64,000 nucleotides of DNA, from assembly GCA_009929775.1 (NCBI GenBank), contig RZZS01000002.1, positions 1 to 64,000 on the forward strand. The letters are read 5' to 3'. A model generated the notes under the pieces. That model saw nothing but the letters and a program-made list of their open reading frames with translations, ran no database searches and was not told where the DNA came from. Positions 35,089 through 62,885 of this stretch are shown here, piece by piece. Origin of the DNA: Alphaproteobacteria bacterium (lineage in GTDB: Bacteria > Pseudomonadota > Alphaproteobacteria > Micavibrionales > Micavibrionaceae). Position numbers and translations under genes: made by a program. Within the stretch, counting starts at the first letter, position 1, and the number at the start of each line of letters is the position of its first letter.

Positions 35089-35248
35089 GGGCAACCTCCT
35101 TATTACCTACTAGAAGAATAGCATGAGCGTATTAACATTTCCATTTAAATGACCGGACCGATTTCGCCCTGGTTTTGCTCCCGGCGTTGCGAATTGCCGC
35201 ATTTTGTGGGAAAATGATCAAAGCGCGCGTCAAAACAGGCTGTTCTTT

Positions 35249-36643
35249 ATGAAATTTCCTCGTTTCGGTTTTTTCGCCTTTTGTCTTTTGGTCTTCTCGC
35301 CACAAACCTCGACAGCCCAGCTCGCCGGGAGCGATACCGCGCCGGGTGCTTCCTGCGCGGGGTTCCCGACGGGCGCAACCCGTCTGGTGGCCGATGCGGA
35401 CGGCAACGGCGCAGATGTCACGCTCGTCTGTGACGGGACTAACTGGCAGGCTGCCGGGGTCAGGGTGGGAAACGATACGGCGTCTTGCGTAGCCGCCAAG
35501 GAGGGAACGATCCGCTATACCGGAGGTTCTCCGGCCTGGGAGTATTGTGACGGGAGTGGCTGGCTCCCTTTTGAGTCAGCCGGGGGCGGCGGATGTTCGG
35601 CCCCGGCTGACTGCCCCGACCCCGGAGACACTTGCACGGACGGGAGTAAATTCGCGGGCTTCGTGAACATCGGAGAAGCGTGCGAGGTTCTTTATGTTGC
35701 TGCGGCAGATCAGGTCAGCGATCAAACTGACGCCTGGGGCCTTACGGGCGATACTGGCGCGGATGACTGGGAGAACGGGGTTACCAATCACCGGTGGATC
35801 GTCGCGAACAGAACGCTAAGCAGCTATCCGGCATTTGAGACCTGCGCCAATCTCTCTCTTCATACCCATGACGACTGGTATCTGCCGGCCTATCAGGAAT
35901 TCTTTACGCTGACGCAAAACAGCAGCGCGATCACCGGTTTCGAGTTTAGCGAGGATTACTGGATCTCCACGGAGTACAATGGCATTAACGGCAATGCCTT
36001 CATGGGAAAAGCTGGTCCGCCGGGGGGCTCGAATACTGTAAAGACGGCGACGAACAATGTGCGTTGCGTCCGCCGCGAAGGGGCGTGCCCGGACGTGGGA
36101 AATGTGTGCGGGGACGGAACGGTTTACGCCGGGTTCAGCCCGGACGGGGATGTGCCGATGTTTACGATGCCCGCGGATGCGGGGCAGATCGACTGGAATA
36201 ACGGCACCGGCAATCTGATAGACACATCAATGGTGAATTGCGCAAATGCAACGCCGGGTACCTCGCCTAGCTGCCAGACGGGGGAAGATAACACGACCTT
36301 CCTGGTAGGTCTGTCCAATGCGGACGCGCCTTACGAGGCGGCTCTTTTTTGCCATTGTCTTGGGAAAGATACGACGGGCGTTTGCGCGAGCGATCCCGCA
36401 AGCGGTTTCAATGCCTATGGTTACAGCGACTGGTATCTTCCTGCGCAGGACGAACTGTACGAGCTTAGGGTCAACAGAACGGCGATCGGCGGATTCGACG
36501 TAACGGGTGCCTGGCCCTCCGGATTTTACTGGTCGTCTTCCGAAAGCGGTGCTTCGGGCGCTGCGCGGCAGCGGTTTGATAACGGTACGCAGGGAACGAC
36601 CAACAAGAATAATACGCTCTCTGTCCGCTGTGTCCGGAAGTGA
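35249..36643 (+). CDS. Secreted protein with two DUF1566 (Lcl C-terminal-like) domains
   Basis: Signal peptide MKFPRFGFFAFCLLVFSPQTSTAQ; repeated DWYLPAYQEF...VRCVRR and DWYLPAQDEL...YWSSSESG...VRCVRK. Confidence 0.8.
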   Translation: MKFPRFGFFAFCLLVFSPQTSTAQLAGSDTAPGASCAGFPTGATRLVADADGNGADVTLVCDGTNWQAAGVRVGNDTASCVAAKEGTIRYTGGSPAWEYCDGSGWLPFESAGGGGCSAPADCPDPGDTCTDGSKFAGFVNIGEACEVLYVAAADQVSDQTDAWGLTGDTGADDWENGVTNHRWIVANRTLSSYPAFETCANLSLHTHDDWYLPAYQEFFTLTQNSSAITGFEFSEDYWISTEYNGINGNAFMGKAGPPGGSNTVKTATNNVRCVRREGACPDVGNVCGDGTVYAGFSPDGDVPMFTMPADAGQIDWNNGTGNLIDTSMVNCANATPGTSPSCQTGEDNTTFLVGLSNADAPYEAALFCHCLGKDTTGVCASDPASGFNAYGYSDWYLPAQDELYELRVNRTAIGGFDVTGAWPSGFYWSSSESGASGAARQRFDNGTQGTTNKNNTLSVRCVRK

Positions 36644-36711
36644 TACCTGACATCCGGGGCGGGCTTTGGAACATGGAATGTGACAAGTTGAAAACCGAAC
36701 TCGAGGCCGCT

Positions 36712-38049
36712 ATGCGAAACGTGTCGAAATACTCTCTCGCAGTCGCGATTTTCGCGTGCGCGGTTCTGCCGACCAGCGCTCTCGCCCAGCTTGCCGGGAC
36801 CGACACAGCGCCGGGAGCGTCTTGCGCCGGGTTTCCGACGGGTGCAACCCGCGTGGTGGCCGACGCAGACGGAAACGGGGCGGAGGTAACGCTTGTCTGC
36901 GATGGCACGAACTGGCAGGCGGCCGGGGTCAGGGTCGGTGCGGATAGCGCTGCATGCGGCTCGGCTAATGAGGGGACGATTCGCTACACCGGAGGGACGC
37001 CTCCCTTCGAATATTGCGACGGCAGCGACTGGACCGAATTTGACGAGACGGGCGGCGGTGGATGCACCGCCCCGGTGGATTGTTCCACGCCCGGGGCCAC
37101 ATGTTCGGACGGCAGCAAGTTCGCGGGATTCGTCATTGACGGGACATCCTGCGCAGCCCTCTATGTCGCCGCGTCCGACCAGGTTAGCGACCAGTCGGAT
37201 GCGTGGGGTCCGGGATCAACCGATACCGGTGCCGACGACTGGGAAAACGGGGCAGCCAATCACCGATGGATCGTCGCGAACACAACGCTCAGTAGTTATC
37301 CGGCCTTCGAGACCTGCGCGAACCTGTCGCTGCACAGCAAGACCGACTGGTATCTGCCCTCAGGCCACGAGATGATCGTTCTGGTGAAAAACCGCAGCGC
37401 TATCGGAGGTTTCGAGGGGGGAGAAGACTATTGGACGTCGACGGAGCTTATAGCGAACAATGGCATCGAAGGTGTGTTTGGTCCGGTCGGGTTCTCCAAT
37501 GACCTCAAGACGAGGACGAATAACGTCCGCTGCGTCCGCCGCGAAGGCGCGTGTCCGGACGTGGGAAATGTGTGCGAGGACGGAACGGTTTACGCCGGGT
37601 TCAGCCCGGATGGTAATGTGCCGATGTTTACGACGCCGGCTGACCAAAGTTCAGGCGCTGCTTGGGGGACATACAATTTCCCGACGGGTTCAACCTCTAC
37701 GATTACAGGGGCCACCAACACCGCGGATATCTATGCCCATGTCTCGAACGGCGATGGTCTTTACAATCCCGGGGACGGCACGACGTCTAACGCCTTTGTT
37801 GTTTGTGCGGAACTAGGTGCCTACAGGCATTCCGACTGGTATGTTCCCGCGCTCGACGAGCTTGAGGTTTTGGTAACAAACCGAAGCGCCATCGGCGGGT
37901 TTGACACGACGTCGGGTTACCCCGTTAGCTACTACTGGTCTTCCTCGGAGAGCAGCGGCGACGTTGCACAGCGTTGGGACTTCGGAACGCCATGGCCCGG
38001 TACCAATAACAAGAACATAATGTTGTCCGTGCGCTGTGTCAGAAAATAG
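36712..38049 (+). CDS. Secreted protein with two DUF1566 (Lcl C-terminal-like) domains, paralog of preceding gene
   Basis: MRNVSKYSLAVAIFACAVLPTSALAQLAGTDTAPGASCAGFPTGATRVVADADGNGAEVTLVCDGTNWQAAGVRVG..., near-parallel architecture. Confidence 0.8.
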   Translation: MRNVSKYSLAVAIFACAVLPTSALAQLAGTDTAPGASCAGFPTGATRVVADADGNGAEVTLVCDGTNWQAAGVRVGADSAACGSANEGTIRYTGGTPPFEYCDGSDWTEFDETGGGGCTAPVDCSTPGATCSDGSKFAGFVIDGTSCAALYVAASDQVSDQSDAWGPGSTDTGADDWENGAANHRWIVANTTLSSYPAFETCANLSLHSKTDWYLPSGHEMIVLVKNRSAIGGFEGGEDYWTSTELIANNGIEGVFGPVGFSNDLKTRTNNVRCVRREGACPDVGNVCEDGTVYAGFSPDGNVPMFTTPADQSSGAAWGTYNFPTGSTSTITGATNTADIYAHVSNGDGLYNPGDGTTSNAFVVCAELGAYRHSDWYVPALDELEVLVTNRSAIGGFDTTSGYPVSYYWSSSESSGDVAQRWDFGTPWPGTNNKNIMLSVRCVRK

Positions 38050-38082
38050 TTATGAAGCGCGATGTTTGACCCAGGGGATATT

Positions 38083-38636
38083 ATGCGATTCGCCTTTCAG
38101 CTGTCCGGATTTATCATTGTTGGCAACCTCTCCTCTGTATGGCGGCCTTTTTCCCGCTTTCGCTCAGCTTGCGGGGACCGACACGGCGCTGGGAGCTTCC
38201 TGTGCAGGGTTTCCTGTGGGGGCAAGCCGTGTCGTCGCGGATGCGGACGGGAACGGCCTCGTCGTGCCGGACGGGGGAAGCGAACACGACCTATCTGGTT
38301 TGGCTGTCGGATACGGCCTCGCCTTACGAGGCGGCGCTGTACTGTTACTGCCTTGGCAAGCCTGCGACGGGGACCTGTTCGAGCGACCCGACAGGCGGAG
38401 CCGACGGTTACGGTTATAGCGACTGGTATCTGCCGGCTCAGGACGAAATTGATGTGATGTACGACAACAAGACGTCTATTGGCGGATTTAACACGACCGG
38501 ATTTCCGCCCGCTGGCAATTACTGGTCGTCGTCAGAGGTGTCTTCCATGGCGGCAAAGCACCAGCCCTTCAGTAGCGGCCTTCAAAGCGGTTCTCCCAAG
38601 TCAAACGCGGCATCCGTGCGCTGCGTCCGGCGATGA
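38083..38636 (+). pseudogene. Decayed third DUF1566 paralog (internal deletion plus frameshifts)
   Basis: Signal peptide, N-domain (FAQLAGTDTALGASCAGFPVGASRVVADADGNG) and C-domain (SCRTGEANTTYLVWLSDTASPYEAALYCYCLGK...DWYLPAQDEI...VRCVRR) lie in three different frames; central ~200 aa missing. Confidence 0.8.
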
Positions 38637-39799: not shown

Positions 39800-41473
39800 A
39801 TGCCAGAAGAGAGAGCAGGAACAGGAGGCGAGGACGCGGCTGCCGAGTATCTTGTTCGCGGTGGCGACAACCTGTCCGAAATCGCCCGAAGGCATGGCGT
39901 TGCGGATTGGCAGGCGCTTGTCAAACTGAACAAGGACAGGTATCCGGGGCTTGAAGAGAATCCTGGCAATATCCAGCCCGGATGGGTTCTTCGGCTGAGG
40001 GATGGCGAACCTCTCGGCAACGCGCAAAATATCATGCCTCAGGGCGATCACGCGGAGACAACTGAAACCTATACAGTTAAGGGCGGCGACAATCTGTCGA
40101 CTATTGCGGCAAAAAACGGAATCAGCGACTGGCAAAGCCTTGTCGAATGGAACCGCGACCGATATCCAGGCCTCGTCGACAGGCCGGAGGAGATCAAGGC
40201 AGGTTGGGAGTTGAGACTTGAAGGTACCGCGCCGCGGGGGCATGCTGCGGCACCTCGTCCGGATTTGCGCGCAGATCTTCCGAGGCCTGCGGAACATTTC
40301 GCTGTGGCGGCCCTCCAGCAGCCACGTCCGCCGGATTCCGTCGAAACGTATACTGTCGAAGGCGGCGACAGCCTGTCGACTATTGCGGCAAAAAACGGGA
40401 TTAGCGACTGGCGCGAACTTGTTGCCCTCAACAAGGACACGTATCCCGGTCTGGTTGATGATCCGGGGAATATCCAAAAAGGATGGAAACTGAAACTTCG
40501 GGAAGCTGCGGGACCAGCCGTGGGTAACGGTATGGTGGCAGAGGATCCGGGCGTTGCCGGAGGTGCAGAGGAAGAATTCCTCGCGGATGTTCGGCAAAAC
40601 GTTGAGGAAGCGCTTGATGTTGCCGGTGTGGGCGCTCCAGCGGAAGGCATCTCTGGAGGTAGTGGCAACCCATTCCGTCTAAGGGGTAAGCTGGCCGAGC
40701 TGGCCGGGGCACTCGAAGGTGTCGATCCCGTGCGGGCCGCAATCGTGCTTCAAGGAGCGTCCCACCTGGGGGTGAAGGAAACCGGGGAGAACAGGGGCCC
40801 CGACGTTGATCGGTATATCACGCAAGCGGATGGGCGGATGCGCTCAGGTGTTCCCTGGTGCGCGGTTTACGGCAGTTGGTCCATCGACCAGGTTGAGCGC
40901 TTCGCGGGAATTGGCAAAGACGAGTTCGTTAAGGGAAGTATGAGAAATCATGAAGTTATGGGCTGGATTCGAAAGAACCATCCCGATGCGATCCGGTCGT
41001 TGTCGGAATATACGCCTCAGCCCGGAGACTTCGCCATTATCGATCGTGTCGATCCCGAGAAGCCGGATCACTTTACCCTTTTTGCCTATGCGAAACGCGG
41101 CGAGGGCGGAACGATCGAAGCGGTTACCATCGACGGGAACTCGGACGACAGCGTTGCGAGCACCGAGCGGACGATTGATACGACAAAGTCCGTTGGTGGC
41201 GGGAAGGGCGTTGAATATGACGAAGGCGAGAACATGTATGTTGTCGATATCAGTCGACTGCCAAATTATGACCGGTTGCAAAGCCGGTTCAACGCAAGGG
41301 CCGCGAGCTTCCAACCGGTTGCTCCGATCGATGCCGGTTATCAGCCTGATGCGGGTTCGTTCCAAAAAGTCTTCGATTTCATCGCATCGGCAAGGCAGCC
41401 GCCCCTTCCGGAAGGGATCGCCGATGCAGGTCCCGGCGCTGTCAGAACGAATACGATGACACCGCCGCTTTAG
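39800..41473 (+). CDS. Triple-LysM protein with C-terminal CHAP-like peptidase/amidase domain
   Basis: Three repeats GGDNLSEIARRHGVADWQALVKLNKDRYPGL...GWVLRL; C-terminal GVPWCAVYGSW...YTPQPGDFAIIDR...DHFTLFAYA. Confidence 0.75.
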   Translation: MPEERAGTGGEDAAAEYLVRGGDNLSEIARRHGVADWQALVKLNKDRYPGLEENPGNIQPGWVLRLRDGEPLGNAQNIMPQGDHAETTETYTVKGGDNLSTIAAKNGISDWQSLVEWNRDRYPGLVDRPEEIKAGWELRLEGTAPRGHAAAPRPDLRADLPRPAEHFAVAALQQPRPPDSVETYTVEGGDSLSTIAAKNGISDWRELVALNKDTYPGLVDDPGNIQKGWKLKLREAAGPAVGNGMVAEDPGVAGGAEEEFLADVRQNVEEALDVAGVGAPAEGISGGSGNPFRLRGKLAELAGALEGVDPVRAAIVLQGASHLGVKETGENRGPDVDRYITQADGRMRSGVPWCAVYGSWSIDQVERFAGIGKDEFVKGSMRNHEVMGWIRKNHPDAIRSLSEYTPQPGDFAIIDRVDPEKPDHFTLFAYAKRGEGGTIEAVTIDGNSDDSVASTERTIDTTKSVGGGKGVEYDEGENMYVVDISRLPNYDRLQSRFNARAASFQPVAPIDAGYQPDAGSFQKVFDFIASARQPPLPEGIADAGPGAVRTNTMTPPL

Positions 41474-43521: not shown

Positions 43522-44229
43522 CTACCGCGCGATCAACACATGAAAGTAGTGGTACGTATTGGCCGGGGGCGTGGTCGTTCCCTCGAAACAGGCGGCGCGC
43601 GCGCCGCGGACGGAGGCCGGGAGGTCGAGGGTTTCGACGGGCGTGGGGTTTCCGTAGGCTCCGGTGAAGATATTCGCGTAGCTCTTGATTGTGTCGGCTT
43701 CCTCGGGAGGCTCGCCTGACGGGTTGGTCACGCCGAGATGGTCGTTGATCGCCTTGCATATTTCCTGTCGGACGTAGGGAAGAAACAGAATGAGATCCGG
43801 CGTGGCGTCGTCGCCGATCTGTTCGGCGGTGTTGTTGCCGGAGACGACCCATACGCCATAGCCCGGGTTGCCTGTCTGCGTCGTATCGAGCCATTCGGCC
43901 GGGGGCGTCTTGTAGATCACCGCGCCGCCGTCGATATGGAAGATTTTGCAGATATCGTCGGTGCAATTCGCGTTGGCATAGCCGCCGGCGAAGTCGTTCT
44001 CGAAGCTGACGGCCGTATCGGCAAAGCCCCGCAGGCGAATCTGGCCTGTTGCCGCGCCGACGGTGTTGGCGAACTCGATGATTTCGGCGGCGGCAAGTTT
44101 GGAGCGTTCGGAGGTAAGGGCAAGATTGTTGCCCCGGTTGCTTTGCGAGACGGCGAAACCGAGCGCCGCAAACAGGGTTACGCCGATCAGAATGTAGATA
44201 AGGGCGTTTCCGCTTTCAGAGCTTCTCAT
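43522..44229 (-). CDS. Single-pass, pseudopilin-like N-terminal membrane protein of unknown function
   Basis: MRSSESGNALIYILIGVTLFAALGFAVSQSNRGNNLALTSERSKLAAAEIIEFANTVGAA... Confidence 0.55.
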   Translation of the reverse strand: MRSSESGNALIYILIGVTLFAALGFAVSQSNRGNNLALTSERSKLAAAEIIEFANTVGAATGQIRLRGFADTAVSFENDFAGGYANANCTDDICKIFHIDGGAVIYKTPPAEWLDTTQTGNPGYGVWVVSGNNTAEQIGDDATPDLILFLPYVRQEICKAINDHLGVTNPSGEPPEEADTIKSYANIFTGAYGNPTPVETLDLPASVRGARAACFEGTTTPPANTYHYFHVLIAR

Positions 44230-44236
44230 CGCCCTA

Positions 44237-44632
44237 CTATACGCCATCGGCGAAATGTTTGAAATCCCCGGCGTGAGCCGCCGGAATATGGACCGGAATG
44301 GTTTCGGCGCCAAGGGCCGCAAGGGTCAGGAACAAGGCCTTTCCGCTGCCGATTTCGACGTTGTCGAGAAGGCCGATGCCGAGGATGGGAATTTCCAGCG
44401 AGCGGCCGTTTTTTATATCCGCTTCGATCGCCTGTCTTTTGAGGCGTTCTCCCTCCGGCAGGTCTTCGGGTGCCCGGATGGAGAGGTCGGGCTGCAGCCA
44501 TTCAAAGCTGAACAACGAGTCCCGCCAGCTTTTCAGGACGGGCTTGACCCGGACGCGGACGGTCACGTAATGGTGCTCGCGTCCCTCGATGACAGGGTTG
44601 TCTATGAATGTAAGGTCCATAGGCGCGGACAT
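44237..44632 (-). CDS. Uncharacterised protein (cytoplasmic, ~130 aa)
   Basis: MSAPMDLTFIDNPVIEGREHHYVTVRVRVKPVLKSWRDSLFSFEWLQPDLSIRAPEDLPEGERLKRQAIEADI...; co-oriented with 43522-44229. Confidence 0.6.
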   Translation of the reverse strand: MSAPMDLTFIDNPVIEGREHHYVTVRVRVKPVLKSWRDSLFSFEWLQPDLSIRAPEDLPEGERLKRQAIEADIKNGRSLEIPILGIGLLDNVEIGSGKALFLTLAALGAETIPVHIPAAHAGDFKHFADGV

Positions 44633-50480: not shown

Positions 50481-51230
50481 CTAACGCGCGGCGGGTACCT
50501 TCTCGCCTTCTTCCCATTCCAGCCCGAACCCGAAGGCCCGGTCCATTTCAGCGTGCCCGGGATAGTATTCGGTGTAGTTGGACAAACGCAAGCCGCCGCG
50601 TACGTTCTCGATGCCGGCCAGCGCGCACAGGGCAAGCTCGGAGCGGCTCGTGCGGAGTGTGACAATCATCGGATTTTCGCCGGGGATGCGCACGTGAATT
50701 TGCGGTCTGAGGGAGGCCCAGTGCGGCGCGCCGTCATAAATATAGACATAAAAAACAACGCGCTTGATCCGGTCCCAGTTCTTCCCGGAGATCGTCATGC
50801 ATTCGTCATCGCCCTCTTCGTCGCCCTCGCGTTCGTCGCCCGAAAGCTGGATGAAGGGCGGCGCGTCGAGCGCGCCGAAGGTTCTGCCGAAAGGCTGCAG
50901 CGCCCCGCGCGTTCCGTCTGCAAGTTCATAAAGACAGCCGAGATCGAGATCGACATTTTGCAGCTTCTTCGTCCGGAGAAGACCGAACAGCGACTCTTTT
51001 TCGACCACCATCTGGTCCCAGGCGAGACCGATCGTGAAATCCGGAAAGCCGCCTTCCGGCCTGTTCACCGAAAGGCCGCACCCGCTTTCGGTCAGAAAAT
51101 CGCACTGGATCGTCGCCGCATCGGGATCCTGATATCCGGCCGCGCCTTTTGAATTGCCATGGCCCGAAAAGCGGGCCCGGCTGCGCGTTGCCTCGGCGAG
51201 GGAGTCGGTGGAATTGCTCTGGCGCACCAT
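50481..51230 (-). CDS. TerD/TerA-like stress protein
   Basis: [79 protein letters not shown]. Confidence 0.75.
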
Positions 51231-51554
51231 TGTTGCGGTCCTTCTTGTGTTCACGATGCTAGTAATCTAGACCGATTTCGAGCGGAAGGCCAATCCGAAC
51301 CTGATCGTCCAGCAATTCTAAACCGGGCCGATTCTGAGGTTCATTTTCTAACACGAAATCACGAGGGCACGAGGTTCACAAAAAAAGCGCGCCGCCAGGC
51401 GCTTAAATATGTTGAAACGGAACCGGTTCGGACCACCTCTTGTAGCAATTCTGAAATCGAAGGAAAGGGGCGCCGTCACCGCGCCTTTGCATTCGGGGGA
51501 CGCTTCCTTTATAAAGTCCGCTCGTTCCGTTTTTCGCAAGAAGGAAGAGAAGAT

Positions 51555-53234
51555 ATGGCCTCCTACCAGTATGTTTACGTCATGAACGGTCTTTCCAAGA
51601 CGTATCCCGGCGGCAAGAAGGTGCTGGAAAACGTCACGCTCAGCTTCTTTCCCGGCGCGAAGATCGGCGTGCTCGGGCCGAACGGGGCGGGGAAATCGAC
51701 CTTGCTGCGGATCATGGCGGGGCAGGACAAGGAATACACGGGCGAGGCCTGGGCCGCCGAAGGCGCGCGCGTCGGCTATCTGCCGCAGGAGCCGCAACTC
51801 GACGACAGCAAGACGGTTCATGAAAACGTCGTCAAGGGTCTTGCGGAAACCAAGGCGATGGTCGACCGCTACAACCAGATCAGCGCCGAAATGGCCGACC
51901 CCGAAGCCGACATGGACAAGCTCATGGAGGAAATGGGAGATTTGCAGGAGAAGATTGATGCCGCCGACGGCTGGGAGCTGGACCGGACAGTCGAGATCGC
52001 CATGGACGCGCTGCGCTGCCCGCCGGGCGACGCGCCGGTCAAAAGCCTTTCCGGGGGCGAGCGTCGCCGCGTTGCGCTCTGCCGCCTGCTGCTCGAAAAG
52101 CCGGACCTTTTGCTGCTCGACGAACCGACGAACCACCTTGACGCTGAAAGCGTGGCGTGGCTGCAGCGCTTTCTGGCCGATTATCACGGCACGGTCGTCA
52201 TGGTTACGCACGACCGCTATTTCCTCGACAATGTGACGGGCTGGATTCTCGAACTCGACCGCGGGCAGGGCATTCCGTACGAAGGCAATTATTCCGCCTA
52301 TCTCGAGAAGAAGGCCAAGCGCCTTGAGCAGGAGGCCAGACAGGAGCAATCGCGCCAGAAGACGCTCGAAAGAGAACTGGAATGGATCCGCCAGTCCCCG
52401 GAGGGTCGCCGCAAGAAGTCGAAGGCGCGCGTCTCCGCCTATGACCAGCTTTTGGCCGACTCGCAAAAACAGACGAACCGCAGCACCCAGATTGTCATCC
52501 CCACCCCCCCGCGTCTTGGCGATCTTGTGATTACAGCCGAGAACCTCCGCAAGGGTTTCGGCGACCGCCTGCTTGTCGAGGACCTGTCCTTCAAGCTGCC
52601 GCCGGGCGGCATCGTCGGGGTCATCGGCCCGAACGGGGCAGGGAAAACCACGCTTTTCCGGATGATCACGGGGCAGGAACAGCCCGACGAGGGCTCGTTT
52701 GCAGTCAGCGAAACCGTCAAGCTCGGCTATGTGGACCAGAGCCGCGACTCCCTCGATGGCAGCAAGACTGTCTGGGAGGAAATCTCGGACGGGCTCGATA
52801 TCCTCAAACTCGGCAAGGTTGAGGTGCAGAGCCGGGCCTATGTGGCCTCCTTCGGCTTCCGCGGTCCCGATCAGCAACAGAAAGTCGGGCTGCTCTCGGG
52901 CGGGCAGCGAAACCGTGTGCATCTGGCTAAAATGCTTAAGAGCGGCGCGAACGTCCTGCTGCTCGACGAGCCGACCAACGACCTCGATACGGAGACGCTG
53001 GCCGCGCTGGAGGAAGCGCTCGAAGTTTTCCCGGGCTGTGCGGTTGTCATCAGCCACGACCGCGCCTTCCTCGACCGTCTCGCCACGCACATTCTCGCCT
53101 TCGAAGGCAACTCGCATGTCGAGTGGTTCGAGGGGAATTACGAGGAGTACGAAAAGGACTACAAGCGCCGGATGGGCCACGACGCCGACCAGCCTCACCG
53201 GATCAAATACAAACCGCTGCGCCGCGCCGGTTGA
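51555..53234 (+). CDS. ettA: Energy-dependent translational throttle protein EttA (ABC-F)
   Basis: [83 protein letters not shown]; two ABC domains. Confidence 0.95.
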
Positions 53235-53450: not shown

Positions 53451-56345
53451 GTGTACAGCATTAGTGCAAAGAAAGTAGCAGGTTATGTACTCCTGCCCGG
53501 GATTGTTCCGCGGCTGAGGGCGTTCAGCACCAGCGGGTTCGGCTATCTCGCGTTCCTTATCGCATCCCTTTACGTTATGGTCCGGATTCTTCCAGTCAGC
53601 CATCCCTACAACAATCCGCAGAACATGGGGAAATTCGGCATTCGGCACGTCATTGCCGAAGCGGCCAATCACATTACCTTCAACCGCAAGAACGCGGACC
53701 AGATTTTCATTTTCTTTGTATCGATTGCGGCGTTCCTGCTTCTGGCCGCGCAAATCGCTGTCCTGCTCTTCGGGCTTTTCTTCCAGACGGCGACGGCCGG
53801 AGGCATTCCCTATGCCGGACTTTTCGAAACGCCCGATCCGGAAAACGATATCGCGTTCCTCCTGCTCGATCAGGTTTTTGGCGTTCCTCAGTTTTTCTGC
53901 AATACGTCCGGTACCTGCACGTCGATCCAGGGCGAATTGCCGTGGCCGTTCCACAGCGCACTGCACACGATGTTCGAGTTTTACTCGCTGGCGATCCTGC
54001 TTTTTGCTGTCATCATTTTCCTCTACTATGTTCTCGTCGTCGTCGCCGAAACGGCCATGACGGGGACGCCCTTCGGGCGCCGGTTCAATCACATCTGGGC
54101 TCCGCTTCGTCTGGTTATCGCGGTCGGCGCTCTCGTCCCGCTCAATTACGGCCTGAATTCCGGCCAGTACATCGCGCTGGCCGCCGCAAAATACGGGTCG
54201 AGCGTCGCCACAAACGGCTGGCTGACCTATAACCGCACCGTTCAGGCCTCGATGGGCGGCAATTACAATCCGATCGGCGAGCGTCCAAACGGCGAATCTC
54301 TCGCTGCCTATCCGAACGCTCCGGATATCCAGCCCCTCGTCTCGTTCATGACGGTGGTGGTAACGTGCCGCCGGGCCTATGAAGAAAACGCGAACCTGCA
54401 GACTGGCGAGACCATTGAGATAGAACCGTATCTCGTCAAGCACGAAAATAATGCTGAGCGGCAACTGGTAGGCGCGGGGACTGATTTCCTTGACGCTCTG
54501 GCTTTCTACAATAACGGCGATGTCGTCATCCGGTTCGGCGAACACGACGACCTGGAGCATCTGGAGGAAAAGGGCCACGTGGAGCCCTATTGCGGCGAAC
54601 TCCTGTTTCACACAACGGAGATCAACCAGCAGGAAGGCTCCTTCGAAATGCAGGAAGCCTACTGGGACATGGTTCTCGATCTCTGGGATGACGACCAGAT
54701 CAACGAAATTGCCAGGGGCTTTACCTGGGCCCACGACATTCGCCAGGAAGATACGAACGGTTGCGATGCCAATATCAACCCCGGTGAAAATCCGTCCTGT
54801 GCAGACCCCACCGACGGTACCTTCAAGCCGCCGCTCTCGGAGTCTCGTCAGGAGCTCATCAACTGGTATCAAGCGCTGACCGAATTCGAGCTGGAATTCG
54901 CCTGGGAACAGATGCGCGCCAGCGACATTTTCGAAATGAGCGACGATATTATCGAGCGGGGCTGGGGCGGCGCAGGTATCTGGTACAACAAGATCGCGCA
55001 GATGAACGGTTCGTGGATTGCCGCGGTCCATATGCTTCCTTCGCCGAGCAAGCTCCCGATCGTGATGGAGAAGGTCCGGGACTCCGCGGCTGCGCATGAC
55101 GGGGAGGCGACGGGAGCCGACGTTTACAGGCCGCGCCAGTCCAACGAAACGCCTTTCCAGCCGGACGGCGCCCAGTACCATATCGCCAAGACGCTGTATG
55201 AAGTTACGAAATGGTTCATGGACGACGATCCGAACCAGGCTTCGCTTGAGATAACCGACGATCCGAACATCATTTTCAAGACGATGAACGTCCTGTTCGG
55301 TACCTACAGTCTGTTCAATATCCGCAACGAGCAAAACGAATTTATCCATCCGCTTGCCCAGCTTGTCGGGATCGGAAAAGGGCTTGTCGACAGCGCGATT
55401 CGCAACCTTGCTTTCTCTGTCCTGTTCGCCGTGGGCGAAGGTGCTGCCGGATCGCTGGGTTATACCGGGTTCGGCGCTGTCTTTCAGGCGCTCAGCGGCA
55501 TGATGCTTTCGATTACGATGATCGGTATGGTCGCCGGGTTTATTCTCTATTACATTCTGCCTTTCCTGCCGTTCATGTACTTTTACTTTGCTGTGGCGGG
55601 CTGGGTTAAGAGCGTTTTCGAGGCCATGGTCGGCGTTCCGCTCTGGGCGCTTGCGCATCTGCGGATTGACGGGAACGGGTTCCCGGGCGATCAGGCCGCG
55701 AATGGCTACTTCCTGATTCTCGAGATATTTATCCGGCCGATCCTGTGCGTTTTCGGACTTCTGGCGGGGATCGCCATCTTTGCCGCGCAGGCCCGCGTTC
55801 TTCACGATGTCTTCAGTCTCGTAATCGATAACCTCACCGGCTTTGACGACCGGTCCTACAATGTCGAGGGCCAGCTTGCCACCGACCGCACCGACCTTGG
55901 CGACGAAATTGACAACCTCATCGGTCTCAACACCTTCAAGCGGGATGTCGTGGACGAGTTTTTCTTTACGATCCTCTACACCATTGTCCTATGGATGATG
56001 GCGACGGCGTCCTTCAAGCTTATCGACGCTATTCCGAACAGCATTCTGCGCTGGATTGGTTCGGGTGTTTCGTCGTTCGGCGACAACCGGGACGACCCGA
56101 CTGACGGTCTCGTTCGCTACGCGGCCATCGGCGGCGCGACGATCGGTAGCCAGGTCGCCGGCGGTCTGCAGCAAATGGGCAAGACGATGGGCATGGTCGG
56201 GGGCGCCGGTCTCAAGGGCCTCGGCCTTGGCAAGACGGGCGGAGGGACCGTGACGTCGCCGAATCCACCCGGTCAGGGGGCAAGGACAGTGACCGACCAA
56301 TCGGGCAGGATAACGGCTACAATAAACAATCCCAGGGGAGACTAG
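53451..56345 (+). CDS. DotA/TraY-family polytopic membrane protein, paralog 1
   Basis: GTG start; TGTPFGRRFNHIWAPLRLVIAVGALVPLNYGLNSGQYIALAAAKYGSSVATNGW; GWGGAGIWYNKIAQMNG; FEAMVGVPLWALAHLRIDGNGFPGDQAANGYFLILEIFIRPIL. Confidence 0.85.
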   Translation: MYSISAKKVAGYVLLPGIVPRLRAFSTSGFGYLAFLIASLYVMVRILPVSHPYNNPQNMGKFGIRHVIAEAANHITFNRKNADQIFIFFVSIAAFLLLAAQIAVLLFGLFFQTATAGGIPYAGLFETPDPENDIAFLLLDQVFGVPQFFCNTSGTCTSIQGELPWPFHSALHTMFEFYSLAILLFAVIIFLYYVLVVVAETAMTGTPFGRRFNHIWAPLRLVIAVGALVPLNYGLNSGQYIALAAAKYGSSVATNGWLTYNRTVQASMGGNYNPIGERPNGESLAAYPNAPDIQPLVSFMTVVVTCRRAYEENANLQTGETIEIEPYLVKHENNAERQLVGAGTDFLDALAFYNNGDVVIRFGEHDDLEHLEEKGHVEPYCGELLFHTTEINQQEGSFEMQEAYWDMVLDLWDDDQINEIARGFTWAHDIRQEDTNGCDANINPGENPSCADPTDGTFKPPLSESRQELINWYQALTEFELEFAWEQMRASDIFEMSDDIIERGWGGAGIWYNKIAQMNGSWIAAVHMLPSPSKLPIVMEKVRDSAAAHDGEATGADVYRPRQSNETPFQPDGAQYHIAKTLYEVTKWFMDDDPNQASLEITDDPNIIFKTMNVLFGTYSLFNIRNEQNEFIHPLAQLVGIGKGLVDSAIRNLAFSVLFAVGEGAAGSLGYTGFGAVFQALSGMMLSITMIGMVAGFILYYILPFLPFMYFYFAVAGWVKSVFEAMVGVPLWALAHLRIDGNGFPGDQAANGYFLILEIFIRPILCVFGLLAGIAIFAAQARVLHDVFSLVIDNLTGFDDRSYNVEGQLATDRTDLGDEIDNLIGLNTFKRDVVDEFFFTILYTIVLWMMATASFKLIDAIPNSILRWIGSGVSSFGDNRDDPTDGLVRYAAIGGATIGSQVAGGLQQMGKTMGMVGGAGLKGLGLGKTGGGTVTSPNPPGQGARTVTDQSGRITATINNPRGD

Positions 56346-56376
56346 GCCGGGTTGAAAGCGGCATATAGGGAATGAA

Positions 56377-59037
56377 ATGAACATAACAGCGAAACGCATA
56401 TTCAAATATACGGTGATGCCGGGAGTGGTCCCGATGTTTCGCGATCTCGCGCAATCGGGGTTCTCGAATGTTGCCTTTTTGATGGCGCAAATACTGAATA
56501 TGGCGAAGCTTCTTCCGGCCGGTCACCCGTATTTGCGCGCCGTCAATATGGGCCGGTTCGGCATCCGGCACGTCCTCGCGGAATCCGGGCGCAATCTGAC
56601 CTTCGATCGGTCGCATATCGATCAGATTGTGATCTATTTCGCGATTCTGCTTGCCTTCGTCCTGCTGGTGGTTCAATGCGCGCTGCTGCTGCTTTCCCTT
56701 CTTGTACAGCCGGCTCTTGCCGCGATGCCCGCCAACTACGGTGAATTCTTCGTCACGGACAACCCGCTTTACGACATTGCATTTATTTTGCTGGACAGCG
56801 TCTTTGGCGTGCCGGACATGTTTGAGTCCTGTGTTGAGCAAATGGTCGCCTGCAACCACAATCCGCTTGACGGCAACCCTGGCATGGATGCTTCCGGCCC
56901 GGTATATACATCGTTCCCGTCGGCATTCCATCTCGGTCTACAGCAGCTTTTCCGGCTTTACAGCATAACGCTGATGATTATTGCCGTGCTGATTTTCTGC
57001 TATTTCATCGTAACGATGATCGGGGAGACGGCGCAGGACGGTACGCCTTTCGGTCGCCGGTTCAACCATGTCTGGGCTCCTTTGCGCATGGTCGTGGCTC
57101 TTGGCCTTTTGGTCCCGATTGGAACCTTTGGTCTTAATTCCGGGCAGTACATTACCCTGTTTGCGGCCAAATGGGGTTCCGGTTTCGCGACCAACGCCTG
57201 GATTCTGTTCAACGATACCCTGACCGGCACCTATCTCGGCGATCAGGAGGATCTTATTGCCCAGCCCAAAATCCCGGATCTGGATCAACTGATCAAGTTC
57301 ATGCTTGTGGCGCAGACCTGTAGGCACGCCTATGCAAATGTTCACGAGGACATGGCCATAGGCCAGACCAACGAAATCCGACCCTACCTCGTCCGGGATC
57401 CCTTGATGGCTCCGATAGCACAGCTCTGGATTGGAACGACCTGGGATCAGGGCGTCAGGTGGAGTCAAAACCGAACGATGGTCGTTCATTGGGGTTACCA
57501 AAATCCGGAGGGGGCGCCCGGTGTCAAAGGCAACGTTGCTCCTCTCTGCGGTGCCTTGAATCTTCCGATGGTCGACATGGACGAGCCGGGCGCTGTCTAC
57601 CTTCAGCGTTTTTATTACACCTTTCTACAAAATCTTTATCAAGCCTTTGATAACGATGGGCGAATCATCGCCAGACGTAATGCGGCCACTATCAATGACC
57701 CCCAGCAAGCTGCGGCGGAAACCGACCGTTACCAGCGCATTGAAATGTATTATGCGCAAATGCGCATTGCTCTCGAGAATGGTGTCGCTATACAGCGCGC
57801 CTCTGCTGAAGTGGAGGCCGATGCGCTCGAACTTTACGGCTGGGCAGGGGCTTCGATATGGTACAACAAGGTCGCCCAGATGAACGGGGCTGTGACAAAT
57901 GCGGTCTTCAACATTCCCCGCCCGAAATTATGGCCTCATGTGCTTGAGAAGGTGTTGAAGGAGAAGCAGCAGACCGACTCGTCCTTTACAGAGGCAACGA
58001 AATTTGATCGCCGACTCGGTGGTGACAAGGACACCGTTGATTTCTCCGAATTCGAGCACGACCTGTACGAAGCGACGAGCGACGCATATAAAATTCTTAA
58101 GGAAGACGGCGGCCGCTTGATGGACGAGCATTCGAGCACGACCGGTAACTGGCTGGTCGACATGATTAATTTTCTTCTGGGCACAGAAGGGCTGATGAAT
58201 ATCCGCGAAAATGTGGACGTCCACCCGCTGGCGCAGCTCTCGGCCATAGGCAAGTCGCTTATCGAAAGCACGATCCGCAATCTGGCGCTTGCAACGGGTG
58301 CCGGTATCGTAACCGTGGCGACCAGCTCGGGCGTGACCCAGGTCGCCAGCAGCCTTCTGGTCACGTTCGCGATGATCGGTCTTACGGCGGGGTTCGCCTT
58401 GCACTACGTCATTCCGTTCCTGCCGTTCCTTTACTTCTTCTTTTCCGTCGGCGGTTGGATCAAGGGGATTTTTGAAGCGATGGTCGGCGTTCCGCTATGG
58501 GCGCTCGCGCACATTCGCATCGATGGGCAGGGGCTTCCGGGGGATGCCGCCGTCAACGGGTACTTCCTGATTTTTGAAGTGTTCCTGCGGCCTATCCTCA
58601 TGCTCTTCGGTCTTCTGGGCAGTATCCTGATTTTCGCGGCCGCCGTGCGCGTACTCAACGACATCTGGGACCTTGTGATCCATAACGTCGGTGGCTTCGA
58701 CCTCGAGAATCAGGCCGATCCCGATCTCACGGATATTGAGTTCTATCGCAACGCGATCGATCAGTTCTTCTTCCTGATTATTTACACGATCATGGTCTAC
58801 CTGCTCGGTATTTCGAGCTTCAAGATGGTCTATCTCGTGCCGAACAACATCCTGCGCTGGATGGGCGCGAGCGTTGCGACCTTCGGCGACCAAAGCCAGG
58901 ATCCGACCGAAGGTCTGATGCAAACCGTCGCGATCGGCGGCGGCAGTGTTTCCAGCCAGCTTTCCGGAGCAGCCAAACAGGGTGGTGCGGCAGCCCAGGG
59001 TCTGGCCGATATGGCAACCGGTCGCAAGCCGACTTAA
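56377..59037 (+). CDS. DotA/TraY-family polytopic membrane protein, paralog 2
   Basis: DGTPFGRRFNHVWAPLRMVVALGLLVPIGTFGLNSGQYITLFAAKWGSGFATNAW; GWAGASIWYNKVAQMNG; FEAMVGVPLWALAHIRIDGQGLPGDAAVNGYFLIFEVFLRPIL. Confidence 0.85.
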   Translation: MNITAKRIFKYTVMPGVVPMFRDLAQSGFSNVAFLMAQILNMAKLLPAGHPYLRAVNMGRFGIRHVLAESGRNLTFDRSHIDQIVIYFAILLAFVLLVVQCALLLLSLLVQPALAAMPANYGEFFVTDNPLYDIAFILLDSVFGVPDMFESCVEQMVACNHNPLDGNPGMDASGPVYTSFPSAFHLGLQQLFRLYSITLMIIAVLIFCYFIVTMIGETAQDGTPFGRRFNHVWAPLRMVVALGLLVPIGTFGLNSGQYITLFAAKWGSGFATNAWILFNDTLTGTYLGDQEDLIAQPKIPDLDQLIKFMLVAQTCRHAYANVHEDMAIGQTNEIRPYLVRDPLMAPIAQLWIGTTWDQGVRWSQNRTMVVHWGYQNPEGAPGVKGNVAPLCGALNLPMVDMDEPGAVYLQRFYYTFLQNLYQAFDNDGRIIARRNAATINDPQQAAAETDRYQRIEMYYAQMRIALENGVAIQRASAEVEADALELYGWAGASIWYNKVAQMNGAVTNAVFNIPRPKLWPHVLEKVLKEKQQTDSSFTEATKFDRRLGGDKDTVDFSEFEHDLYEATSDAYKILKEDGGRLMDEHSSTTGNWLVDMINFLLGTEGLMNIRENVDVHPLAQLSAIGKSLIESTIRNLALATGAGIVTVATSSGVTQVASSLLVTFAMIGLTAGFALHYVIPFLPFLYFFFSVGGWIKGIFEAMVGVPLWALAHIRIDGQGLPGDAAVNGYFLIFEVFLRPILMLFGLLGSILIFAAAVRVLNDIWDLVIHNVGGFDLENQADPDLTDIEFYRNAIDQFFFLIIYTIMVYLLGISSFKMVYLVPNNILRWMGASVATFGDQSQDPTEGLMQTVAIGGGSVSSQLSGAAKQGGAAAQGLADMATGRKPT

Positions 59038-59046
59038 GGAATATGA

Positions 59047-61845
59047 ATGCAGGTCACGAAAGGGCAAATCGCACGCTACACGCTTCTCCCCGGAATTCTG
59101 CCTCGATTTTTCGAGATGTTCGGTCCGGGGCAGGGCCTTATTGCCTCCTGGATGGCGCTGATTTACGGTTCCGTCCGGCTTCTTCCCCCGGCGCACCCGT
59201 ATCTTCGACCCTCCAGCCGCGGCAAGTTCGGCGTTCGCCATGTGATTGGCGAAGCGGGTCGGAACCTGATCTGGGACCTGAAGCATGTAGACCAGATTAT
59301 CGTCTATTTTACGTTGCTTGCCGGGTTTCTCATGCTTCTCTTGCAGTTCCTGTTCTTTGCCGGGGCACTCTTCATTCTTCCTGCCTTCGCGATCGAGAAT
59401 TACATCGGGATTGATATTCCGACGTCGCCGCTGGAAATTTTCGTGACGGACAACCCGCAGCAGGACATCGCTTTCATCCTTCTGGATCTTGTCTTCGGCG
59501 TCCCGGATTCGGGTGGCGGGGCATCCAGCTTTTTCGGTTCGTGCATCGGGACGGGAGGCACGGGTTGTACCGATACTCAAGGCAACGTTTTGCCCCATGA
59601 CGGATCGGCGTTTCCGTTTCCTTTCCATGAAGCGCTTCGGGAAGTCTGGGCTCTTTACAGCTACGGACTGTTCCTCGTTGGCTGCCTGATCATTATTTAT
59701 CTCGTCATTACGACGGCGGGCGAAATGGCCGCGAGCGGTACGCCGTTCGGGCGCCGCTTTAACCGGGTCTGGGCGCCCATCCGGTTGATGTTTTTCTTTT
59801 TCCTGATCGTTCCGATCGTCCACAATCTGAACATTGCGCAAATGGCAACGCTGCACATCGCGAAGTTCGGGTCGAGCATGGCGACGAATGCGTGGATAGT
59901 TTTCAATGAGGCGCTGGTAACGGGGAACACGACTATCCTTTCGGGGAATACGGGCACTATGGGAGAACGATGGATTGTGGACCCCAACGTCCCCGAACCG
60001 GGAACGTCTTTCCAGTTTCTCCATACGGCCATGACCTGTAAGTATGCCGAACGCCTACTTCATAACCGGTATATCCAGCCGTATCTGGTTAAAGGCTCGC
60101 CAAATCCGGAAGCGCGATATTTTGCCAAGTACCCGGCAGATGATCACGTGACAGACGGAATAGAGCCGGCTGGAGCAACGCGTATAAATCTCGACGAGGC
60201 GCTAGCATTTTTCGACAATGGTGACATCGTCATTCGTTTCGGGGAATACAACCCGGATCTATACACAGATCATGCCGGCTATGTTTATCCTTGGTGCGGA
60301 GAACTTGTCCTGAGAAATCCGGGGCTCGCCTCTACGGACTATGGCGTTCCAGAAAAGACCGGAATCTGGATTGCGTTCATGGTCGGGTGGGATCTTCTTC
60401 AGCAAGTCTGGGCAACCGGAGGCCTTGCGCCTACCCTTCACGGTTCGGGATCCAATATTGCACGGAATTTCCTGTTGAGAGAAGGAAACGAGGTTTTGGC
60501 GTCGGATGATCTGCGCCAGATGATCGAGGTCTACAGGACGATCGCAAGCGGCTACATTGCCACTGCTGTAAGAAATCACAGAACAAGGCCAGAGTTCGTT
60601 GTGCCGGACGTCCTGATCGAAAAAGGATGGGCGGGGGCCGCAATATGGTACAGCCGGATCGCTCAGCTCAACGGCCAACTCATCGACGCGTCCAGTGCGG
60701 TGCCAGCTCCGAAGCTCTGGCCCTCGGCGCTTGAGCAGATCATGGAAGCGCGTCGCGCGAACAATATGAACAACACAGGCACGGATCGTTTCGACCCGAA
60801 CCTTGCAGACGGGAAACGGGTCCAGTTCGAGCGGGAGGAAGAAGTCGATGTGGCACGGGCGGAACGGTTTACGCACAATCTGTGGCTGGATGAAGTGAGT
60901 GAGGTTATCGCGGACGGACGCCCAAGTCGGTCTCACACTGTCATCCATAACCCGCTCATCGACTCCATTAATGCCATTTTCGGCACGCAAGGCCTGTTCG
61001 ATATGCGCGAAAATGCGGACGTCCATCCGCTGGCCCAGCTGACGGGGGCCGGGAAGATGCTTGTCGACAAGGCGTTTGTCGCTTTCGGCTTTTCGGCTGG
61101 CATGTCTCTGGGCGGAGGATTATGGGGAATCCTGAGTGGCAACCCGAGTCCGATGATTGCTTCCATGGCGTCCATTGCCAAGTATGTCGGGGTGGCGGGC
61201 CTGCTGTCCGGTATTATCCTGTATTACGTCGTGCCGTTCATGCCGTTCATCTATTTCTTCTTTGCCGTCATGGGCTGGGTCAAGGCGATTTTTGAGGCCA
61301 TGGTCGGGGTGCCGCTCTGGGCGCTCGCGCACCTGCGAATTGACGGGGACGGTTTGCCGGGGCCCACGGGGATGAACGGCTATTTCCTGCTCTTTGAAAT
61401 CTTTGTACGACCGGTCCTGATCGTGTTCGGGCTGGTGGCGTCTGTATCGGTGCTTGGCGCGGTCGTTTCCGTTCTGAACGAGATTTTCGAGCTTGTTGTG
61501 GTTAACCTTACAGGGAGGGACCCGAATGACGTTCAGGCCGACGATCCGACCCAGCTGGAGTTTTACCGCAACGCCGTCGACCAGTTTTTCTACACGATCA
61601 TCTATGTCATCATCGTTTATATGATGGCGCTCTCCTGCTTCAAGCTGATCGACCTCGTGCCGGGCAACATCATGCGCTGGCTCGGCGCAAGCATCGCGGT
61701 CTTCGGCGATGCCGAGAAGAACGCGGCCGGTCAGATCACCCGCCTGACCTCGATGGGAACGACGAGCGCGGGCATGCAGGTGAACGAAGGACTGAGCGGT
61801 CTCCAGCAAGGGGCCTTCATGGGCCACTTCTTCGGCGGGAAATGA
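59047..61845 (+). CDS. DotA/TraY-family polytopic membrane protein, paralog 3
   Basis: SGTPFGRRFNRVWAPIRLMFFFFLIVPIVHNLNIAQMATLHIAKFGSSMATNAW; GWAGAAIWYSRIAQLNG; FEAMVGVPLWALAHLRIDGDGLPGPTGMNGYFLLFEIFVRPVL. Confidence 0.85.
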   Translation: MQVTKGQIARYTLLPGILPRFFEMFGPGQGLIASWMALIYGSVRLLPPAHPYLRPSSRGKFGVRHVIGEAGRNLIWDLKHVDQIIVYFTLLAGFLMLLLQFLFFAGALFILPAFAIENYIGIDIPTSPLEIFVTDNPQQDIAFILLDLVFGVPDSGGGASSFFGSCIGTGGTGCTDTQGNVLPHDGSAFPFPFHEALREVWALYSYGLFLVGCLIIIYLVITTAGEMAASGTPFGRRFNRVWAPIRLMFFFFLIVPIVHNLNIAQMATLHIAKFGSSMATNAWIVFNEALVTGNTTILSGNTGTMGERWIVDPNVPEPGTSFQFLHTAMTCKYAERLLHNRYIQPYLVKGSPNPEARYFAKYPADDHVTDGIEPAGATRINLDEALAFFDNGDIVIRFGEYNPDLYTDHAGYVYPWCGELVLRNPGLASTDYGVPEKTGIWIAFMVGWDLLQQVWATGGLAPTLHGSGSNIARNFLLREGNEVLASDDLRQMIEVYRTIASGYIATAVRNHRTRPEFVVPDVLIEKGWAGAAIWYSRIAQLNGQLIDASSAVPAPKLWPSALEQIMEARRANNMNNTGTDRFDPNLADGKRVQFEREEEVDVARAERFTHNLWLDEVSEVIADGRPSRSHTVIHNPLIDSINAIFGTQGLFDMRENADVHPLAQLTGAGKMLVDKAFVAFGFSAGMSLGGGLWGILSGNPSPMIASMASIAKYVGVAGLLSGIILYYVVPFMPFIYFFFAVMGWVKAIFEAMVGVPLWALAHLRIDGDGLPGPTGMNGYFLLFEIFVRPVLIVFGLVASVSVLGAVVSVLNEIFELVVVNLTGRDPNDVQADDPTQLEFYRNAVDQFFYTIIYVIIVYMMALSCFKLIDLVPGNIMRWLGASIAVFGDAEKNAAGQITRLTSMGTTSAGMQVNEGLSGLQQGAFMGHFFGGK

Positions 61846-61975: not shown

Positions 61976-62129
61976 ATTGCCCACGGCAATCGCTTGATCG
62001 CCGGTCCCACCCCCTTTTCAAGAGGTGGAGAGGTGTGGCGGCTCCTTTCTCCGCTCATCCGGGGGCGTCGTCAATTCCAATGGAAACGTCGAAGAGCCGA
62101 AAGAAAAAGGCCGGGTTACCGGCCATTTT

Positions 62130-62819
62130 TCATTCGCCGGCCTGCGAGCGCAAATGCTCGAGCAGAACCTCGACCCGTCCGCCGCCTCGCTGGATGATCG
62201 AGGAAAAGTCCGAACGTTGCGTGATCGACATGCTGACGCCTTCGACGATGACGTCGACAATGCGGTAGCGTCCGTCCTTGTAGCGCACAAGCCAGTCGAC
62301 CCGGACTTCCGGATCACCCTGCGGCACGATATGGGATGTGACGAGAACGTCGCGTTTTCCTTCGGGCCGGTAGCTGCGGACCTCAAAGTTCTGGCCTTCA
62401 TAATCCTCGAATCGACGGGAATAGACATTGACGATCATGTCGTTAAAGAGCTTCGAATACTCATCCCGCTGTTGCGGCGTAGCCACCCGCCAGTAGGTGC
62501 CCAAAGCGAAGCGTCCAACGGTATTCATGTCGAAACTGTCTTCGAGGAGCTTCCGGAATTCGGTCTTCCGCTCCTTCTGGCTCATTGAGGCGTCGGATAG
62601 AAAACCTATGGCGCGCTTTCCAAGGCTATCGATGAAGTTCCGTGCTCCAGCAGCTTCTTCGTTCGAAACTCCGGCTTCGCTTGAGACCGTTATTGCAAGG
62701 GATGAAGCCGGAACGGTTGCCCTTTCCGCAGCGACGAAGGCATCGGAATCTGTCACCGCAAAGAACGTAAGAAGGAGGGAAATCGCCGTGCCGCAGGCGA
62801 ACTTTTTTCTGAATTTCAT
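62130..62819 (-). CDS. mlaC: MlaC/Ttg2D-family phospholipid-binding ABC transport protein
   Basis: Signal peptide; RKLLEDSFDMNTVGRFALGTYWRVATPQQRDEYSKLFNDMIVNVYSRRFEDYEGQ...VRVDWLVRYKDGRYRIVDVIVEGVSMSITQRSDFSSII. Confidence 0.9.
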   Translation of the reverse strand: MKFRKKFACGTAISLLLTFFAVTDSDAFVAAERATVPASSLAITVSSEAGVSNEEAAGARNFIDSLGKRAIGFLSDASMSQKERKTEFRKLLEDSFDMNTVGRFALGTYWRVATPQQRDEYSKLFNDMIVNVYSRRFEDYEGQNFEVRSYRPEGKRDVLVTSHIVPQGDPEVRVDWLVRYKDGRYRIVDVIVEGVSMSITQRSDFSSIIQRGGGRVEVLLEHLRSQAGE

Positions 62820-62885
62820 AAAACTCACTTTCTAATACCGAACAATCGGGACAGTGATATCTGTGTCCTGTCCCGCAAATCAAGC

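Follow-up and report, generated by a model that had tools for sequence, protein, structure and literature searches.

Three consecutive genes in the window, by which we mean the whole 64-kb stretch of DNA that was analysed, encode diverged members of the DotA/TraY family. Very probably they supply the inner-membrane and periplasmic channel subunit (the position of DotA, TraY and VirB6) of a single T4BSS whose genes are scattered over the chromosome and whose channel gene was tripled in an ancestor. What we observe is that the three proteins are DotA homologs, that the rest of the machine is encoded elsewhere in the genome, that no other DotA accompanies it, that the triplet shares its locus with the DotA of a sister family, that it has been retained family-wide, and that genes of the IcmX/TraW type are amplified as well.

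Table 1. Positions in the window of the three DotA/TraY genes, the gaps between them and their conserved neighbours
Feature	Position	Strand	Remarks
DotA/TraY paralog, copy 1	53451..56345	+	964 aa, GTG start; TIGR04346 265 bits
DotA/TraY paralog, copy 2	56377..59037	+	886 aa; TIGR04346 250 bits
DotA/TraY paralog, copy 3	59047..61845	+	932 aa; TIGR04346 225 bits
Gap between copies 1 and 2	56346..56376	+	31 bp; without + strand terminator
Gap between copies 2 and 3	59038..59046	+	9 bp; AGGA ahead of ATG
Terminator-like two-way hairpin	62109..62124	.	closes the DotA operon on one side and the convergent mla genes on the other; from a consensus match only
ABC-F ATPase (EttA-like), within ORF	51159..53234	+	conserved upstream neighbour; syntenic marker, outside the machine
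MlaC	62130..62828	-	PF05494 145 bits; conserved convergent neighbour, syntenic marker
MlaA	62886..63671	-	PF04333 237 bits; conserved neighbour, syntenic marker

A sequence-only reading of this DNA had described three same-strand ORFs with the lengths and gaps of Table 1, which agrees exactly with the sequence, and the conserved blocks that it quoted are indeed present and keep their order in an alignment of the three copies. Its assignment to DotA/TraY is also confirmed, since the HMM search gave 225-265 bits against the curated cut-off of 100 bits of TIGR04346 (DotA_TraY; E-values of 1.7e-78, 5.8e-74 and 2.4e-66 for copies 1 to 3). Copy 3 further finds Legionella DotA (PDB 9ngy) with an E-value of 1.9e-10 in phmmer, while Pfam has no fitting model for the three ORFs. 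With NF033886, the model of the Legionella DotA equivalog, the copies score 178, 159 and 137 bits, well under the cut-off of 500; by sequence they are members of the DotA family and not the Legionella equivalog. Identity to copy 1 is 43% for copy 2 and 39% for copy 3, so the proposal that these are diverged paralogs is correct and near-identical duplicates are ruled out. A scan of viral contigs gave no relatives of DotA.

The copies resemble Legionella Dot/Icm DotA and IncI TraY in family, membrane layout, C-terminal block and partner machine. Each has 7-8 hydrophobic segments in a Kyte-Doolittle scan and a conserved C-terminal membrane block that can be aligned with both R64 TraY and Legionella DotA. 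They differ from R64 TraY at the other end, where about 100 residues, through the first strong hydrophobic segment, are present in each window copy and have no counterpart in the plasmid protein. The first conserved block (LPGxxPR...GKFGIRHV...DQI) precedes the region covered by the family model and is missing in R64 TraY, whose homology begins near profile position 184; it is common to single-copy DotAs of the same order. An AlphaFold DotA model built from the three window sequences had a pLDDT of 33 and was unusable.

Conservation was compared between copy groups in the 13 genomes whose orthology is cleanest. The three groups share the same conserved positions, and conserved copy-specific residues are nearly absent: only 3 sites are conserved within copies and different between them. 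Because the shared core is the same and copy-specific sites are so few, any of the copies can take the same place in the structure. Two parts vary freely, the middle segment (about 280-620 of copy 1, minus the GWxGAxIWY block) and the C-terminal tail, and copy 3 has the lowest conservation of the three. The sequence-only reading saw in the middle segment a hint of distinct periplasmic specificities. The segment does vary between copies, as that reading noted, and the suggestion of specificity gains little from our comparison: the segment is the least conserved part inside each copy group too, hence its variation looks like fast evolution, not like conserved differences between copies.

With regard to expression, a scan of the + strand found no intrinsic terminator in either gap between the DotA copies, and a terminator-like hairpin follows copy 3. 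For these reasons a single transcription unit is plausible for the triplet, as the one-operon proposal had it.

Contig C67, whose first 64 kb make up the window, belongs to a genome of 2.99 Mb (190 contigs, rated 100% complete). In the rest of the window we recognised no T4BSS gene by eye, and to that extent the earlier statement that the triplet lacks visible T4BSS partners is right; genome-wide it is not, for the partners lie on other contigs. Contig C132 carries in one run DotI (NF038072, 206 bits, cut-off 175), DotH (284 bits), DotG (NF033900, 147 bits, below the equivalog cut-off of 750), a DotF-like gene (weak, 40 bits), a TraQ-like gene, IcmJ/DotN (88 bits) and the start of DotO. This DotO is cut off by the contig end after its N-terminal part, and it is named from gene order and from its likeness to the full gene of a relative, G022, which itself has weak scores with VirB4 models. 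On contig C105 are DotB (379 bits, under the equivalog cut-off), DotC (261 bits), IcmT (81 bits, cut-off 40) and a DotD-like ORF, assigned by its likeness to a TcpQ-domain protein of G022. Contig C151 has the DotL/TrbC coupling protein (398 bits, under the equivalog cut-off). By gene content, then, the genome has the T4BSS core of DotC, DotG and DotH, the ATPases DotB and DotO, DotL, and the inner-membrane components DotI and IcmT. No DotA exists in the whole genome beyond the window triplet. One of the observations that by its own account would refute the sequence-only reading was a full T4BSS locus elsewhere with its own DotA, the triplet being recent near-identical duplicates; the T4BSS set is there, a second DotA is not. 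The system is therefore an unusual version of a known T4BSS machine, and the view that it is an undescribed one has to be given up.

Other parts of the machine were counted in relatives of this bacterium. DotH is single-copy in 36/39 and DotC in 13/14, so DotA stands apart from the parts counted in this way, which occur once per genome. DotA itself was found in 56/59 relatives. In G024 (a single contig, 89% complete) DotH, DotC and 5 IcmX-like genes were found and no DotA match.

The position of the triplet in the chromosome ties it to this machine. Two genomes of the sister family f3 (G026 and G032) have a single DotA beside mlaC-mlaA-lpt, convergent with it, and directly 3' of DotI-DotH-DotG-DotF. 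In the window's own family, f1, the DotA array has the ettA-like ABC-F gene upstream in G022 and G003, and convergent mla neighbours in G022 and G023; the array of the window has both. The ABC-F neighbour recurs in G036. The DotI-H-G-F block is at a different location in f1. As the mlaC-mlaA neighbourhood is common to f3 and f1, the triplet occupies the chromosomal place of the single DotA of the sister family. Given this shared locus and a T4BSS set with no other DotA, the triplet is best regarded as the DotA of the dispersed chromosomal T4BSS.

Tripled DotA is a family trait. All 24 f1 genomes fetched, from different genera, have three tandem, full-length, co-directional DotAs (four in G040), altogether 73 intact ORFs, and these form one clade against those of f2 and f3 (support 100). 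In the free tree copy 1 falls into two groups. When copy 1 of all 24 genomes was constrained together, the log-likelihood was 2.6 higher and p-AU was 0.53, which is compatible with copy 1 as one orthologous lineage. For copies 2 and 3, orthology mostly follows position: window copy 2 clusters with its counterparts in 11 other genera, and window copy 3 with those in 12 others. Re-duplication or conversion has affected these two copies in certain lineages (G022, G009/G013, G040/G044/G048), hence a strict rule of one copy, one role is not universal. The trees suggest that a single triplication took place in the ancestor from which the Micavibrio family descends, after which every copy was kept.

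DotA is usually one gene per system, and in this the Legionella and IncI systems differ from the three diverged tandem copies described here. The claim that the copies exceed the usual number is borne out by a sample of 399 genomes of the phylum, where nearly all of the 12 other genomes with DotA have a single copy. Within the order, separate extra DotAs occur in f6 (two, in G052/G055/G058) and in f4 (four, in G051). Elsewhere in the class, DotA was found in 14 further genomes of 395, among which are a few tandem pairs; those of G123, G282 and G371 belong to other families, which makes DotA duplication a recurrent event in Alphaproteobacteria.

A second family of T4BSS genes is multiplied in the same bacteria. 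In G022 two tandem genes of this family adjoin T4BSS core genes, and from sequence profiles and a structural model we identify the family as IcmX/TraW, the presumed partner of DotA. One member matches NF033888 (TraW, NCBIfam) with an E-value of 1.9e-6, below the cut-off. In hhalign the family profile and an alignment of 11 plasmid TraW-family proteins match at 93.6% (E 2e-7); the 297 columns are colinear and their cysteines line up. An unrelated control scored 0.1%. The alignment of 11 was needed, as the single R64 TraW sequence gave no confident match with the profile. An AlphaFold model (pLDDT 79) was searched with Foldseek against 350,542 PDB chains, and the best match was 9ngy_AP1, from the entry of the Legionella DotA-IcmX protochannel (E 1.7e-3, prob 1.00; the next has E 1.4), with low TM-scores of 0.23-0.25 that amount to fold-family evidence, not close superposition. 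Since the DotA chain of 9ngy is FP1 (1048 residues), we infer that AP1 (417 residues) is IcmX. Sequence searches of the PDB with the IcmX-like and TraW profiles returned nothing meaningful, and it was the fold search alone that led to 9ngy.

IcmX-like genes are found in 2-6 tandem copies in 34/37 f1 genomes, in 4-8 in most of f4 and f6, and in 0-2 in f2 and f3; the window's genome has three, on contig C12. In public contigs we found 65 loci with such genes, in which arrays of mostly 3-5 copies recur; they are labelled Micavibrio, Micavibrionaceae, Alphaproteobacteria or Pseudomonadota MAGs, and in one case Verrucomicrobia. What sets the family apart from known IcmX/TraW is its occurrence in tandem arrays, mostly of 3-6 copies; some copies are extended by a long N-terminal addition, and one has a phage-lysozyme domain. 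Many arrays include at least one copy whose N-terminus is longer by about 200-680 residues. The lysozyme fusion is on C12 (L130:15432-17363, 643 aa, N-terminal PF00959 at 40.8 bits, cut-off 22.3), and would place a predicted wall-cutting domain on a presumed secretion-tip protein. In the N-terminal extensions of other long IcmX-like copies Pfam found nothing significant; one of these copies (L188:9143-11278, no significant Pfam match) has an N-terminal part that to the eye resembles an M23-type peptidase (HxxxD, HxH). In the window's genome (L130:7686-11435) and in G022 (end of L047, start of L048) the array adjoins genes that by eye resemble flgK/flgL, of the flagellar hook-associated type.

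The numbers of DotA and IcmX copies do not rise together: order-wide the Spearman coefficient is 0.00, and genomes of f4 and f6, with 5-8 IcmX-like genes, often have one DotA. Two genomes, G043 and G046, have three DotAs and no IcmX-like match with the family profile, which may be too narrow for them.

Several other genes of the window deserve a short record. At 35204-38636 two tandem related secreted Lcl_C (PF07603) proteins share an N-terminal repeat and are followed by a third similar ORF. The ORF at 43522-44322 has a pilin-like N-terminus (GNALIYILIGVTLFAALGF) and no Pfam match; a similar protein adjoins the DotL gene in G022 (L133:3433-4206). The ORF at 39800-41473 has several LysM repeats and a C-terminal half without assignment, and possibly encodes a wall-acting enzyme.

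How would three DotAs be used? TraW, IcmX and VirB5 correspond to each other, as do TraY, DotA and VirB6, and both proteins form pentamers (PMC12624023, PMC12857230). By analogy with Legionella, DotA and IcmX would form a central five-fold protochannel, and here we infer that channel and tip would be assembled from a set of non-identical subunits. The closest precedent is the tandem VirB6 of the Rickettsiales T4ASS. In the rvh system, also of Alphaproteobacteria and also with scattered machine genes, the VirB6-position channel protein is encoded by tandem, co-directional, diverged copies, 4-5 paralogs that are co-transcribed (PMC7648143), and in Ehrlichia the VirB6 paralogs interact, according to the title of Bao 2009 as cited in PMC12857230. 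The differences are that rvh is a T4ASS whereas here we deal with a T4BSS, and that Anaplasma lacks VirB5 (PMC7648143) while here the VirB5-position protein is multiplied. In our opinion, mixed DotA rings in one machine are the most likely assembly, to which we give roughly even credence; they are favoured by the tight linkage of the genes, their shared core and the Rickettsiales precedent.

The main alternative, which we hold to be rather less likely, is that each DotA makes its own homopentamer with one or more IcmX-like tips, which would yield versions of the machine that differ by time, cargo or prey. The copies are indeed kept and positionally stable, the IcmX-like partners are several, some with extra N-terminal domains, and other families have acquired extra DotAs independently (four in G051, two in G052/G055/G058). 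However, a single tight array without terminators in its gaps favours joint production, and DotA and IcmX numbers show no one-to-one match. We consider it improbable that only one copy serves as the channel while the others do a different job, for example as a secreted or surface-exposed DotA. Legionella DotA itself was found secreted (PMC12981334), and a job of that kind would suit the large middle segment and the C-terminal tail, which vary freely, as well as the low conservation of copy 3; yet all three copies have the same membrane segments and conserved C-terminal block, with nearly no conserved copy-specific change.

The sequence-only reading had proposed, beside a hetero-oligomeric channel, a repurposed machine for secretion or for the envelope that would stand alone, with no further T4BSS components. 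The rest of the window, in which no T4BSS gene was recognised by eye, fits this idea of a stand-alone machine, but the T4BSS set elsewhere in the genome without another DotA, and the membership of the same-locus single DotA of relatives in a DotI-H-G-F operon, contradict it, and we now hold it to be very improbable. Still less credence, practically none, can be given to a recent amplification or an assembly artefact, considering the 43% and 39% identity of copies 2 and 3 to copy 1 and an arrangement common to 24 genomes of different genera.

To return to one T4BSS with a tripled DotA, it would serve to make contact with other cells (prey), not to conjugate, a suggestion we make with more reserve, on the ground that most family members lack a MOB-P relaxase. 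In a search with PF03432 only, such relaxases had matches in 11/39 relatives; the match in the window's own genome is weak, below the cut-off, and lies beside a distinct TrwB-like coupling protein on contig C160. The scarcity of MOB-P relaxases is a weak argument that the main job of the machine is something other than conjugation.

The presence of a T4BSS in this order is not new. When the first Micavibrio genome was published, its authors reported that they saw no evidence for type IV secretion (PMC3189940); pT4SSi, a T4BSS without relaxase, has been noted in seven Micavibrionales genomes (PMC9418006), in passages of that work where multiplication of DotA or IcmX goes unmentioned. Titles and abstract openings in a limited literature collection held nothing relevant on tandem DotA paralogs. 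What is new is the tripled DotA together with multiplied IcmX/TraW in the same genomes.

The significance of this should be seen against the fact that DotA and IcmX were recognised only recently as a five-fold protochannel. Three DotAs and several IcmX-like proteins, long and stably kept, constitute a natural test of whether the channel must be uniform, and the array parallels the tandem VirB6 of Rickettsiales in another class of T4SS. Our tentative speculation, which may well prove wrong, is that the T4BSS protochannel could be non-uniform at both levels, with a mixed DotA ring and interchangeable IcmX-like tips, some with wall-cutting domains, and that it could have evolved in epibiotic bacterial predators for breaching other bacteria. 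The findings place a T4BSS in relatives of Micavibrio, and since Micavibrio is culturable on laboratory prey, gene removals should be feasible.
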